From: a virus
Direction: 5' to 3' (one strand)
DNA: 38,843 nucleotides
Virus record (IMG/VR): IMGVR_UViG_3300010401_000054
Location: 1-38,843 of that record
The notes below the pieces were generated by a model, which was not told the origin of the DNA, searched no databases, and saw only the letters and a list, made by a program, of their open reading frames with translations. The translations under genes were made by a program, and so were the position numbers. Positions 203-33,291 of this stretch are shown here, piece by piece (the first letter of the stretch is position 1; every line of letters starts with the position of its first letter).

Positions 203-1357
203 ATGGCGGGTCGTAAGGCAAACGAAATCACCTTCGGAGTGGAGATCGAGTGCTTCATTCCCAACATTGTCGGAGTGACGGATTTTGCAATCGGGGCTTA
301 CCATAATGGAATTCAAATCCCTGGGCTTCCGGCGGGATGGAACTCGCAACGCGACGGCTCCATTTACACGCGGCGCGATGGGTTCCGGTCGATAGAAGTT
401 GTCTCCCCGGTTCTAAAAGGAACGGAGGGAATCGCTTCACTAATCCATGTGGCGGAAACGCTGAAAACCTGGGGCGCAAAGACGAATCCCACTTGCGGCT
501 TCCATGTCCACGTCGGGATGAATCTGTCCGATGAGGATTCCATTATCCGGCTCATCCACCAGGTGAGCAACCATGAGAAGGCTCTCTTCGCCGCTTCGGG
601 AACGCCGCGCCGCGAGCGGGGAAGCTACTGCCGCTCGATCAAAAAGAATTGGGAGCCGATTAAAGACAAAAAGCCACAGACGCTTCGGTCCGTGGGAAGA
701 AACTCCGAGCGGTATTTCGCGCTGAACCTTCAAACGCTTTTAGGTGGCGGGCGGCCGACGGCAGAATTCCGCGCTTTCAGCGGCACGATAGAGCCGCGAA
801 AGATGGCGGGCTATGTGTTCATGGCCCTGGCCTTTACCGAGAAGGCGGAGAATGCCGCTTGCGCTCCTTACGAGCCGAATAATGTTCGGACCTTTGAGAA
901 CCTTGCCAGCGACAATGCCGGGGAGCGAGAGATGAAAAGATTCTTCATCGACTTCGGTTGGGATGGAACTTATTGCCGCACGACCTATGGGCTCATGCCA
1001 ACGGGAGAAGAAATCACCTTAGAGGGAACGAAAAGAATTCTTCTTCGCTTGGCCCGCACTTACGACCGCAAGCTGAAGCCCGAGAGAGAAGAGATGAGGG
1101 TGCGCTTGCAAACAACCATCCAGCAAATGAACGAGCAGCAAGATAACCGGGTGAATCAGCGAACGAATGCCTACGCCGAAACTCTCATGCGTCGAGCCGT
1201 TGAATTGAGCAATCGCCTGGCCGGACGAGAGGCTTATCGAGGAATCAAGAACGATCAGGACAAATGGGTCATCGTGCAAATCGCCCAGATCCAGCGCGGA
1301 AGTCTTGGGCCGGGAGAGATTGATCGGTTGGCGCGAAACGAAATGGAGCCTTTCTAA
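203..1357 (+). CDS. Amidoligase_2-type ligase (COOH-NH2 ligase)
   Basis: This 384-residue protein matches the amidoligase family related to glutamate-cysteine ligase and glutamine synthetase. These enzymes use ATP to join a carboxyl group to an amine. Visible landmarks are FGVEIECF (residues 11-18, metal-binding acidic residues), Glu65 in IEVVSP, CGFHVHVG (98-105, paired histidines) and TAEFRAFSGT (186-195, family EFR motif). The C-terminal third is charged and helical. The start follows GAGG at about 8 bases. The stop overlaps the amidotransferase start in TAATG, so the two are probably made together: the partner would release ammonia from glutamine or act on the same product. The substrate is unknown; a cell-wall peptide, a phage or host protein, or a modified DNA base are all possible. 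Confidence 0.85.
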   Translation: MAGRKANEITFGVEIECFIPNIVGVTDFAIGAYHNGIQIPGLPAGWNSQRDGSIYTRRDGFRSIEVVSPVLKGTEGIASLIHVAETLKTWGAKTNPTCGFHVHVGMNLSDEDSIIRLIHQVSNHEKALFAASGTPRRERGSYCRSIKKNWEPIKDKKPQTLRSVGRNSERYFALNLQTLLGGGRPTAEFRAFSGTIEPRKMAGYVFMALAFTEKAENAACAPYEPNNVRTFENLASDNAGEREMKRFFIDFGWDGTYCRTTYGLMPTGEEITLEGTKRILLRLARTYDRKLKPEREEMRVRLQTTIQQMNEQQDNRVNQRTNAYAETLMRRAVELSNRLAGREAYRGIKNDQDKWVIVQIAQIQRGSLGPGEIDRLARNEMEPF

Positions 1358-2223
1358 TGTGTGGAATTTTTGGGTTTCTCGGCGCACGGCAAAACGCCCT
1401 AGACTTGCCGACGCTCAAAAAGATCGCCCTCGTGACCGAGGCCCGAGGGAAGCACGCTTTCGGTTGGGCCTGGGTGTCGAAAGATGGGCATATCCATTCT
1501 TACAAAATGCCGGGGGAAATTAGTAAGCACATGAATCTACTCGACATGGTGAAGGATGCCGAAGTGGTGATCGGCCACACGAGATGGGCCACGCATGGCG
1601 ACCCGAAGGACAACGCCAATAACCATCCCTTCGCGTGTGACGGCGGGTGGCTCGTTCACAACGGAATCGTTTCCAACTACGCGGCCCTAGCGAATGAGAA
1701 TGAGATCGTTCTGCAGAGCGAATGCGACTCGGAGATCATCGCCGCCCTCGCCGAACGCAGTAACGCGGCCACGGTTCTAGACCGAATGGCCGACGCCATA
1801 GCGCAAACGAATCCTGGCCCGCTGGCGGTGGCCGCTCTATGGGCGCGACCTACGCGCTTGGTGATCGCCAAAAGAGGCAACCCCCTTTCCTTTGGCCGCA
1901 CGCGCGGAGGGTCGATTTACTTTGCCTCTCTGCCGACCGGGTTGCCAGGAACGGTAAAGCCCGTGGGACAGGAATCAATTTATAGTTTCGAGTTGGTTTC
2001 ATGGAGAAAAGACAATGGAAAAGTTCGCTCCCGCAAGGCGTACGCAAATAATCGGAATTCGCATTTCTTCCGAACAAAGGGAAGCGCTGAATCATGCGGC
2101 CCGTTGTTTGAATGTGCCTCTGAGTCGAATCGTTCAGATGGCCCTAGACGATTGGTTCAGTCAGAGGGGCGATGGGAAGGGAAAACCGTGGCCGACGGAA
2201 ACGGCCATCAAGAGGAGGAATAA
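1357..2223 (+). CDS. Class-II glutamine amidotransferase
   Basis: An Ntn-hydrolase glutaminase domain of the GlmS/PurF type. It begins MCGIFGFLG, so Cys2 becomes the N-terminal nucleophile after Met removal. It keeps ARGKHAFGW (29-37), GHTRWATHGD (73-82, Arg77 binds the glutamine carboxylate), the oxyanion motif HNG (101-103) and ECDSE (122-126). The domain looks complete by about residue 214, and no synthase domain follows. The acceptor enzyme is therefore probably the amidoligase it overlaps by one base. From about residue 220 the reading frame runs through a ribbon-helix-helix gene in another frame. That 69-residue tail has no recognisable fold and may be a read-on after loss of an original stop, so the functional C-terminus is uncertain. 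Confidence 0.88.
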   Translation: MCGIFGFLGARQNALDLPTLKKIALVTEARGKHAFGWAWVSKDGHIHSYKMPGEISKHMNLLDMVKDAEVVIGHTRWATHGDPKDNANNHPFACDGGWLVHNGIVSNYAALANENEIVLQSECDSEIIAALAERSNAATVLDRMADAIAQTNPGPLAVAALWARPTRLVIAKRGNPLSFGRTRGGSIYFASLPTGLPGTVKPVGQESIYSFELVSWRKDNGKVRSRKAYANNRNSHFFRTKGSAESCGPLFECASESNRSDGPRRLVQSEGRWEGKTVADGNGHQEEE

Positions 2224-2230
2224 AAAGTGA
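2015..2230 (+). CDS. Ribbon-helix-helix (CopG/Arc-like) DNA-binding protein
   Basis: This 71-residue protein has the RHH layout: a strand at residues 11-18 (QIIGIRIS), helix A at about 19-32, helix B at about 35-48 (PLSRIVQMALDDWF), and a basic tail. RHH proteins bind DNA as dimers through the strand and usually act as repressors. The gene lies almost entirely inside the 3-prime end of the amidotransferase in another frame, with its own GGAG about 9 bases before the ATG. Of the two frames, this one has the recognisable fold. Its stop overlaps the next start in GTGA. A plausible target is the operator-like repeat array at 2882-2946. Confidence 0.75.
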   Translation: MEKFAPARRTQIIGIRISSEQREALNHAARCLNVPLSRIVQMALDDWFSQRGDGKGKPWPTETAIKRRNKK

Positions 2231-3150: not shown

Positions 3151-3369
3151 ATGCCAGAAGAAACGAGTGACGTGTGGATGACTCCGAAGCAAGCCGGGGC
3201 TTACCTGGGCGTGAACCAGCAAACAATTAAGCGTTGGTATCGCGCCCATATGCTGACCGGACACCGAACGGGCCAAAAGCTCCTTCGGTTCAGGAAGCGC
3301 GACCTGGACTCTTTCGCGCTAGGAGGGAGGAACCGTGCAATCGGACCTAGATCCCGACCGCGAGCTTAA
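3151..3369 (+). CDS. Excisionase-like helix-turn-helix protein
   Basis: A 72-residue protein with a MerR/excisionase-type winged HTH: WMTPKQAGAYLGVNQQTIKR (residues 9-28) is the recognition fold and RFRKRDLDSF (46-55) the following wing and helix. Proteins of this type are excisionases or small regulators. No integrase is seen in the window, so regulation is as likely as excision. There is no Shine-Dalgarno before the ATG. An AT-rich TTTAATATAT lies just upstream, so the transcript could be nearly leaderless. The C-terminal end overlaps the next small gene. Confidence 0.7.
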   Translation: MPEETSDVWMTPKQAGAYLGVNQQTIKRWYRAHMLTGHRTGQKLLRFRKRDLDSFALGGRNRAIGPRSRPRA

Positions 3370-28242: not shown

Positions 28243-28317
28243 TGGTAGCGGGTGGGGGAATCGAACCCTCGTCCTGCGGATTATGAATCCGCCGCTCGGC
28301 CTCTGAGCTAACCCGCG
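28243..28317 (-). tRNA. tRNA with anticodon CAU (Met or Ile2)
   Basis: Folds to a cloverleaf on the minus strand. Acceptor arms are CGCGGGT and ACCCGCT, followed by ACCA. The D arm is GCTC/GAGC, the anticodon stem GCGGA/TCCGC around TTCATAA, and the T loop TTCGATT. The 3-prime CCA is encoded. Position 1-72 is C opposite U, and 50-64 is A opposite C, so both are unpaired. An initiator tRNA also lacks the 1-72 pair, but the anticodon stem here lacks the three consecutive G:C pairs of initiators. Anticodon CAU can mean Met, or Ile if lysidine-modified. It lies on the late strand, downstream of the terminator at 28327. Confidence 0.82.
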
Positions 28318-31044: not shown

Positions 31045-33291
31045 CTATTCTCCTACTTCCACCGCATTCAACACGCAGCGGCAATTAATGACTTCCTCGG
31101 GCGGGCCGCCAATTTCCAGCGGGTAGCGCAGACCATTGGAAAATGGCGAACCGTAGGGGCGAGTTTCTCCGTCCTGTTCGGCGTGGGATTCGCGCACGGC
31201 TTCATCCCCTGCGGTTTGCCAAGCTACTTCTTTCACGTTCTCTTCTTTGTACAAAATGGCCTGCGCCCCGGACGAGGCGATGCCCGTTTCGGTGCGGGCT
31301 ATTACATTCGCCCATCCGTTTGACCATTGGTTGAAGCTCGACCGGATGACCTCGGAGAGATCGTTAACGTTTGTACCCTGCGTAAGTTCTTCCGTGAGGA
31401 TGGACCGCAAGCGCATCTGCATCGTTCGGTTGACGCCTACCAGAGTGGCCAGTTTTTGACCCATGAATTCCAGCACGCGCGGGTCTTTTAGATTAAAGGC
31501 CGCATCCGATCCCATCGCTTCGGCTGCGTCGACCCAAGAGGTTTTCATAATCGACTGGTAGGCGGGTTGGGCTTCGTTCTTTAGTTTGGCGTCCCACTTG
31601 TATTTGTCGAACAGGAGAAGATGGAGATCGTCGGGGGAAAGTTCCCGCGTCTTGGCGATGCTGCGTTTGGCGTCGGCCTGCTCGATGAGGTGAAGTTCCT
31701 CGGCGCGGAGCTGGTAAAGGTAACGCTTCATCTTGCCGAGGAAGAGTTTCTCCCCCGGCACGAGGACGCGCACGAGACGACGACGCCAAATAGGACCGCC
31801 CGCAGAGCGAGTTTTCGATTGTTGGGAATCGTTTGGTGTGTTGTTGTTGGCGGATGAAGGATTGTCCACGGGCGGTGGGGAGGGAGCCGCATCTCCGCTA
31901 TTGGGGTCAGGCTGTAAGTAAGAAGCGTCGAGTCCCCCGGCGGGAACCAGGGACGAGGGCAGATAGGCTATGTCGCCTTCTTCCGAAGGGTCGAAACCGA
32001 GGTCCAGCCGCTCGTTCACTTGGTTCCTGGTAAAGCCAATGTTGAAAAGCTTTACCGCGATGTCCGTCTTGGCGGTGAGATCTTCCCTAAGAGCTTCGAC
32101 ATCAGAAACGTCAAAGATGCCGAACTCATCCTCCGAAGTGAGCGGGACAAAAAGCCGCGCGAGAATAGTGTCCTCGAAGTAGTTCAACATCGGCAACACG
32201 GGGCCTTGCCAGAACAAGCGAAACTCGGTGATCGAAGAGGCGTAGTTCACTTGATCGGTAATGCCGACGACGATTTTAGGAACGTGCCAAATGGCCAGCA
32301 ACTCGGACAGACTCCATTTCCGTTGCTCTAAGAACTGCATCTCCGTATGGGTGTTGCCCGTGACGGTATACTTTGCGCCCGAGTGGAGAATAGCGACGCG
32401 GAAAGCCTTGCCCTGCCCTGCATGAGTGTCTTCCCAAACGCGACGGATCTTGTTCGCTTGCTCTTGGGTAAGCTCGCCCTGGTGTTCTATGACTCCGCCG
32501 GGGTCGCCCGAGTTGTCGAAGAATGATTCGTTATAAATGGCGGCCTTGAAGTCTTGCCGCAACGTGGACATGGCGGCTTCTAGGGGAGCCAACCCGCGAA
32601 TGGGGTTGCTGGGGTTGGGCTTTTTGAACTGGATAATCTGAAATGGTTCGTACGGAATCGTCTGCTCGACGCCATAGGCGTCCTTCACTTTGAGGAACCA
32701 CGTCTTTACCGTCTGCGTTTCGGGGTCTTTCTCATAGGTAAAGAGTTTCCCCGACATGGGCCATATCTCGGTGGGCACCTCGTTGGGCGAGAGAGGGCCA
32801 TTCTTCCCTTCGAGAACCCAAAAGCATTCGCCCTCTAGCTGGTAAAGCCCGGCGGTAATTTCCCAAAGCTGGGCGTGGGAGATCGTGGGATTGGGCGAGC
32901 GGAAGAGTTCATATAGCGGGCCGCTCTCTACCGGGGTGTAGTCTCCCTCGGCCACCGAGTAGGACGAGCGCTTCCGTTGCCAATCGGGAAGAACCGTTTT
33001 CCGCGCGGCCTTTATTTTATCCTGCATCCTCTCGCGCCGTCGCACAGCCGAGGCGCTCGGCTTCGTGGAGCGCATGATCTGAAAGGGAACGCAAGAAGCG
33101 GCGGTGGAAATGGCGGAGATGATGGAATAAACAAAGGCGTGCTGCGAGTAGGGATCGGTGAGCTTGAGATTCGTGTAGTCCATGCCTAGAGACGAGGACC
33201 ACGGAGACATGAAGAAATCGGTAAACGCCGGATTTGTCACGGGAGCGGATTTAGTCTTTGACCCGAACGCAGCGAGAAGGCGTTTTAGCAT
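31045..33291 (-). CDS. Portal protein fused to a MuF-like domain
   Basis: 748 residues. The first 460 are an HK97-type portal: SQHAFVYSIISAISTAASCV, FRSPNPTISHAQLWEIT, the hinge FKKPNPSNPIRGLAPLEAA and WHVPKIVVGITDQVNYAS. A Pro/Asn linker follows (about 455-490). The C-terminal 200 residues have the MuF/SPP1 gp7 pattern: VIARTETGIASSGAQAILY, RESHAEQDGE and EEVINCRCVLNAVE. MuF proteins are usually separate minor head proteins encoded just after the portal. Here the two are one gene, so every portal subunit carries a MuF domain. Confidence 0.85.
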   Translation of the reverse strand: MLKRLLAAFGSKTKSAPVTNPAFTDFFMSPWSSSLGMDYTNLKLTDPYSQHAFVYSIISAISTAASCVPFQIMRSTKPSASAVRRRERMQDKIKAARKTVLPDWQRKRSSYSVAEGDYTPVESGPLYELFRSPNPTISHAQLWEITAGLYQLEGECFWVLEGKNGPLSPNEVPTEIWPMSGKLFTYEKDPETQTVKTWFLKVKDAYGVEQTIPYEPFQIIQFKKPNPSNPIRGLAPLEAAMSTLRQDFKAAIYNESFFDNSGDPGGVIEHQGELTQEQANKIRRVWEDTHAGQGKAFRVAILHSGAKYTVTGNTHTEMQFLEQRKWSLSELLAIWHVPKIVVGITDQVNYASSITEFRLFWQGPVLPMLNYFEDTILARLFVPLTSEDEFGIFDVSDVEALREDLTAKTDIAVKLFNIGFTRNQVNERLDLGFDPSEEGDIAYLPSSLVPAGGLDASYLQPDPNSGDAAPSPPPVDNPSSANNNTPNDSQQSKTRSAGGPIWRRRLVRVLVPGEKLFLGKMKRYLYQLRAEELHLIEQADAKRSIAKTRELSPDDLHLLLFDKYKWDAKLKNEAQPAYQSIMKTSWVDAAEAMGSDAAFNLKDPRVLEFMGQKLATLVGVNRTMQMRLRSILTEELTQGTNVNDLSEVIRSSFNQWSNGWANVIARTETGIASSGAQAILYKEENVKEVAWQTAGDEAVRESHAEQDGETRPYGSPFSNGLRYPLEIGGPPEEVINCRCVLNAVEVGE

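Follow-up and report, generated by a model that had tools for sequence, protein, structure and literature searches.

What reaction might be carried out by the two enzymes that this phage locus encodes side by side, a predicted amidoligase and a glutamine amidotransferase (GATase), and what could a phage gain from it? The window, which is the whole stretch of DNA analyzed here, is IMG/VR virus record IMGVR_UViG_3300010401_000054 (38,843 nucleotides), a 38.8-kb linear contig without terminal overlap or end repeats, and the pair lies at its left end. The amidoligase gene (positions 203-1357, plus strand) and the GATase gene (1357-2223, plus strand) are coupled by a TAATG stop/start overlap (1355-1359, plus strand), as an earlier note on this DNA had described. 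Its reading of an operon in a phage is borne out by this overlap and by the phage genes in the contig. Rightward early-type genes (HTH/excisionase-like, RecT-like, and exonuclease) extend up to approximately 10.3 kb, past which leftward genes encode tail fibre J, tape measure, capsid, protease, portal, and terminase. Both genes proved genuine and complete. PADLOC returned no match, and hence no defence or anti-defence assignment of the window. Elsewhere in the contig, a tRNA-Met (CAT) gene (28243-28317, minus strand) lies between late structural genes, and the 748-aa portal (31045-33291, minus strand) is an apparent portal-head-morphogenesis fusion, its C-terminal part matching head-morphogenesis families. 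The intergenic stretch at 2881-2962, upstream of the HTH_17 gene at 3151, contains a 13-nt inverted repeat (TAATGGCCGCATA / TATGCGGCTATTA) and a tandem ACGCACCGAG/ACGCACAGAG, and is a possible operator.

The first protein (384 aa) belongs to Amidoligase_2, a COOH-NH2 ligase family of the GCS/glutamine-synthetase superfamily. It matched PF12224 with 74.2 bits (E 2e-20, curated gathering cut-off 22) and the PHROGs amidoligase family phrog_2443 (E 3.6e-28), and GCS2 was a sub-threshold Pfam match. The core motifs that the earlier note had listed as complete were all located in the translation (FGVEIEC at residues 11-17, FHVHVG at 100-105, and EFR at 188-190). In an alignment of 55 amidoligases, residues E14, E16, D51, E65, G99, H101, N175, E188, and R190 are invariant and present in the window copy, which also has H103 (kept in 48 of the 55 relatives). 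The protein has the acidic, HxH, and ExR residues that are conserved in the GCS/GS active site. Its AlphaFold model (pLDDT 87.6) gave YbdK and its Salmonella homologue, GS, and GCS as the best Foldseek matches in the PDB (E <0.001). YbdK and the plant and bacterial glutamate-cysteine ligases resemble the model in fold (E 4e-5 to 3e-4), but the TM-scores are low (0.31-0.44), identity is 11-13%, and their substrate is not transferable. The predicted fold and the conserved acidic, His, and Arg residues are those of the YbdK/GCS/GS carboxylate-amine ligases, and the family assignment supports a predicted chemistry in which a carboxyl group is modified, in line with the earlier note. The catalytic core covers approximately residues 6-290 and is followed by a C-terminal extension (1067-1354, plus strand; residues ~289-384), which lies beyond the conserved core and is missing from the closest relative, L008. 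A single helix of 68 residues is predicted at residues 273-340, mostly within this extension. Among the structural matches, the Mycobacterium phage Tesla protein A0A2L1J0D3 (BFVD) matches the amidoligase fold and is labelled "glutamine amidotransferase domain protein", a possible misannotation or fusion.

The second protein (288 aa) is a stand-alone class-II (Ntn) GATase of the GlmS type. Pfam matches were GATase_6 (PF13522, 54 bits, cut-off 27) and GATase_7 (PF13537, 28.3 bits, cut-off 25), with GATase_4 as a weaker related match, and PHROGs assigned it to the glutamine amidotransferase family phrog_14519 (E 3e-23). These profile searches, proposed in the earlier note as a check on both family names, leave little room for doubt that the two ORFs are Amidoligase_2 and class-II GATase. 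The GATase motifs (Cys2, TRWATHG, and HNG) are complete as well; the catalytic Cys2 follows the start (MCGIFG), HTRWATHG occupies residues 74-81, HNG 101-103, and DSE 124-126. The glutaminase domain of Escherichia coli GlmS (PDB 1xff) aligns with the protein (E 9e-15), and the catalytic Cys, the TRWATHG loop, the HNG oxyanion pair, and the glutamine-binding Asp are all present. C2, R76, N102-G103, and D124 are conserved in relatives, and every residue that is invariant in 30 relatives is present, so the alignments with relatives and with 1xff revealed no loss of catalytic residues. Foldseek matched the model to GlmS, PurF, and EgtC. These comparisons of sequence and model indicate a complete GlmS-type glutaminase site in the second protein. 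The match is to the glutaminase domain only; the C-terminal SIS (isomerase) domains of GlmS are absent from the 288-aa ORF, which scored 101 bits against TIGR01135 (GlmS, cut-off 418). Against the EgtC equivalog TIGR03442 it scored 37 bits, below the cut-off of 219.

The 3' end of the GATase ORF is less regular. The ORF is supported to approximately residue 235 (position ~2060), and its last ~50 codons (after ~2070) are unsupported. Most relatives end near residues 205-235, and from residue 239 onward the AlphaFold model shows disorder. The tail beyond approximately residue 235 is probably a run-on. Another ORF (2015-2230, plus strand, 71 aa) shares the final 209 nt of the GATase ORF, read in a different frame, and is preceded by a good Shine-Dalgarno sequence, GGAGAAAAGACA, with a GGAGA ribosome-binding site. 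It matched RHH_3 with 13.9 bits (E 0.056), below the cut-off of 21.6; it is a probable ribbon-helix-helix protein and possibly a candidate regulator. Either the overlap is an unusual gene arrangement, or the GATase gene has lost its stop or carries an indel at its end.

The pairing of amidoligase and GATase is not new, and the module has already been described in many phages. It has been recognized since 2009, going by the citations in later papers, which attribute the "peptidoglycan modification cassette" to Iyer/Aravind and Hardies; the term covers amidoligase and GATase together with ATP-grasp and GGCT genes (PMC5498523). In the cassettes of LUZ24-, RIO-1-, and phiEco32-like phages (PaP3 orf42-48), an Amidoligase_2 gene is directly followed by a GATase_6 gene, as in the window (PMC5498523). 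In the PaP3 annotation, amidoligase orf46 adjoins GATase orf45, and the two are flanked by a COOH-NH2 ligase, a RimK-like ATP-grasp protein, and GGCT. In contrast, no COOH-NH2 ligase, RimK/ATP-grasp, or GGCT was matched among the window ORFs scanned, although the contig is linear and begins just before the pair, so that such genes may lie upstream of it. Furthermore, the PaP3 GATase is longer (517 aa), and the PaP3 amidoligase is remote (E 3e-10 to the profile of the window's amidoligase family). The Arthrobacter phages Ottawa (genes 65-66) and Waltz (95-96) carry both families in the same order and strand arrangement as the window, but with 23-27% identity and with the genes 77-123 nt apart rather than overlapping; in Waltz, a GGCT gene lies just upstream of the pair. 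Both genes have also been described in UFV-P2, which is LUZ24-like as PaP3 is (PMC3890496), in OM43 phages (PMC10580990), and in RIO1-like podoviruses (PMC5498523). The planctomycete Phage-ZRK32 has amidoligase, GATase, glutathione synthase, and GGCT genes (PMC10945688), and Clostridium clostridioforme prophages have an amidoligase with GGCT (PMC11318856). The earlier note knew of no characterized phage system of this kind. This holds for biochemistry, since no substrate, product, target, or phenotype of any module member was found in the published descriptions consulted, but the pairing itself is annotated and published (PaP3, UFV-P2, OM43, and Arthrobacter phages). The window genes are best explained as the core ligase-amidotransferase pair of this known phage amidoligase cassette, with none of its usual extra genes matched among the ORFs scanned on the contig.

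How constant the pair is was examined in two sets of loci, the best 80 of at least 477 confirmed amidoligase relatives from a profile scan of IMG/VR and 80 genome-contig loci, with GATases sought beside the amidoligases by an iterated GATase profile. Single-sequence scans of IMG/VR with the amidoligase or the terminase each returned one distant locus and no near kin. The survey of other phages for adjacent copies that the earlier note had suggested found a class-II GATase at 43 of the best 80 viral loci (of at least 477), in addition to PaP3 and the Arthrobacter phages; the count was 22 of 80 for genome contigs. In the viral and genome loci, each of the 71 GATase ORFs found shares the strand of its amidoligase and comes after it, without a single case upstream, and the gap is at most 130 nt in 45 of 65 loci. 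Pairwise amidoligase and GATase distances across 30 loci were correlated (r=0.79, reached by none of 5000 permutations), in part because of shared phage ancestry; the comparison indicates that the two genes are co-inherited. No amidoligase-GATase fusion was seen among the surveyed loci. Long GATase ORFs that overlap the amidoligase at L003, L028, and L149 were considered as fusions and rejected, as their starts fall within the amidoligase gene but in a different frame. In an approximate FastTree phylogeny with several long branches, the window amidoligase falls in a clade of 62 rows (support 97) together with Planctomycetota, Verrucomicrobiota, and one Armatimonadota contig, and these clade mates hint at the phage host. 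The closest relative among the matches listed, L008 (IMGVR_UViG_3300013372_005428), has the genes adjacent and in the same order, with 44% identity for the amidoligase in its best segment and 41% for the GATase, but its proteins are shorter (GATase 215 aa; amidoligase 300 aa, lacking the extension). On these sequence comparisons, the window pair is a divergent member of the known module, its best relative among the matches listed being ~44% identical.

What might such a pair do? The account put forward here as the most likely, tentatively and at close to an even chance, is that the two enzymes form an amide on the carboxylate of a peptide, probably in the cell envelope, at the expense of ATP and coupled to glutamine. 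The amidoligase would activate a carboxylate with ATP as an acyl-phosphate; the likeliest candidate for this group is the gamma-carboxyl of a peptide that contains Glu. The GATase would hydrolyze glutamine and pass its nitrogen to the amide. With less confidence, a peptide of the cell envelope is the presumed target, and the phage could profit through superinfection exclusion or through remodelling of its host, as proposed in the literature. MurT-GatD, which amidates the stem peptides of peptidoglycan, would be a functional parallel and not a homolog; MurT is a Mur-ligase and GatD a class-I GATase (PMC5871853, PMC3267633). The profiles, motifs, and folds of both proteins argue for this account, as do the coupling of the genes across loci, their co-varying distances (r=0.79), and published proposals (PMC5498523, PMC10580990). 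Roles proposed in the literature are peptidoglycan modification against superinfection or nitrogen metabolism, and no experimental demonstration of altered host peptidoglycan or of superinfection exclusion by the cassette was found in the published descriptions consulted. Lack of any observed fusion counts against amidation, as does the silence of those descriptions on substrate, target, and phenotype. GlmS is a true ammonia-donating glutaminase, and the closeness of the window GATase to GlmS favours amidation.

The genes that replace the GATase in related loci complicate this account. At five of the best 80 viral loci (of at least 477; L013, L027, L035, L048, and L049), the amidoligase has a Peptidase_C26 gene downstream of it, and no class-II GATase turned up. 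This partner has a class-I-type GATase fold, which is compatible with amidation, but it scores far better as a gamma-glutamyl hydrolase (146 bits) than as a class-I GATase (67 bits). GGCT/AIG2 occurs at 21 of the best 80 viral loci (of at least 477), six of them with a GATase too, and near the amidoligase at 47 of 80 genome-contig loci, mostly from Clostridia (within L101-L167). In some close relatives (L082, L100, L105, L112, L122, L124, and L126), a small MCII-type class-II GATase was observed in place of GGCT. The GGCT reaction donates no ammonia, and the simple reading in which the GATase feeds the ligase therefore does not cover the whole family. The earlier note's statement that the glutaminase would supply ammonia is plausible for a GlmS-type enzyme, but it is one of several readings because enzymes of the gamma-glutamyl bond substitute for the GATase in sister lineages. 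The replacement pattern is compatible either with a GATase that feeds ammonia or with one that cleaves a gamma-glutamyl product.

In the second case, the amidoligase would couple the gamma-carboxyl of glutamate to an amine, which could be an amino acid, a polyamine, or a peptide. The gamma-glutamyl group would later be cleaved off or transferred by the Ntn enzyme, for which EgtA/EgtC, PuuA/PuuD, and BtrJ/BtrG are models. This reading, the second most likely, is somewhat doubtful. GATase, Peptidase_C26, and GGCT share the gamma-glutamyl amide bond in their chemistry, and all three act on gamma-glutamyl amides. GATase and GGCT occur together more rarely than expected in the viral set (six loci, odds ratio 0.24, Fisher P 0.01, with relatedness ignored), and the partner type switches at least nine times on the amidoligase tree, which is approximate and has several long branches. 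The sub-threshold GCS2 match and the YbdK/GCS fold of the amidoligase, and the presence of EgtC among the profile and fold matches of the GATase, point the same way. However, the window GATase resembles GlmS/PurF more closely than EgtC (101 vs 37 bits), and its glutamine-site residues are preserved. In some phages, GATase and GGCT occur alongside two ligases, and because of this the partners may serve different ligases. The stronger form, in which the Ntn GATase, Peptidase_C26, and GGCT are interchangeable enzymes of unrelated folds and the window GATase hydrolyzes or transfers the gamma-glutamyl group of the amidoligase product in a reversible gamma-glutamylation instead of donating ammonia, is unlikely.

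Two further readings appear improbable. The first, proposed for the planctomycete Phage-ZRK32 (PMC10945688), is that the pair serves as auxiliary genes of nitrogen metabolism and tilts the glutamine/glutamate pools of the infected host toward the synthesis of amino acids. The nearest cellular relatives of the window genes are planctomycetal and verrucomicrobial, but that study tested the whole Phage-ZRK32 and not these genes, and a ligase-amidotransferase pair that is dedicated and inherited together points to a specific product more than to a bulk flow of nitrogen. The other, of about the same low probability, is that an amino acid or amine is placed on phage DNA bases, or on a protein such as the host polymerase or a virion protein. 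This is chemically possible, and amino-acid-decorated phage bases exist. However, nucleotide-modification and base-hypermodification families had no match among the window ORFs scanned on this linear contig without end repeats, no companion gene was found among them, and a base intermediate with a carboxyl group is not predicted. The DNA base that the earlier note had listed among the possible targets thus found no support in the window, although companion genes may lie beyond the contig because it is linear and lacks end repeats.

The window adds to a recurrent phage module a divergent two-gene member of a planctomycete/verrucomicrobial-like lineage, and its compactness, with two genes and an overlapping stop/start, makes it a convenient minimal version for biochemistry. 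The partner replacements are the addition of this analysis, and they turn the vague label of "peptide modification" into two distinguishable chemistries. If the make-and-break chemistry is true, the module would be a phage-encoded system for the reversible gamma-glutamylation of a host metabolite or peptide.
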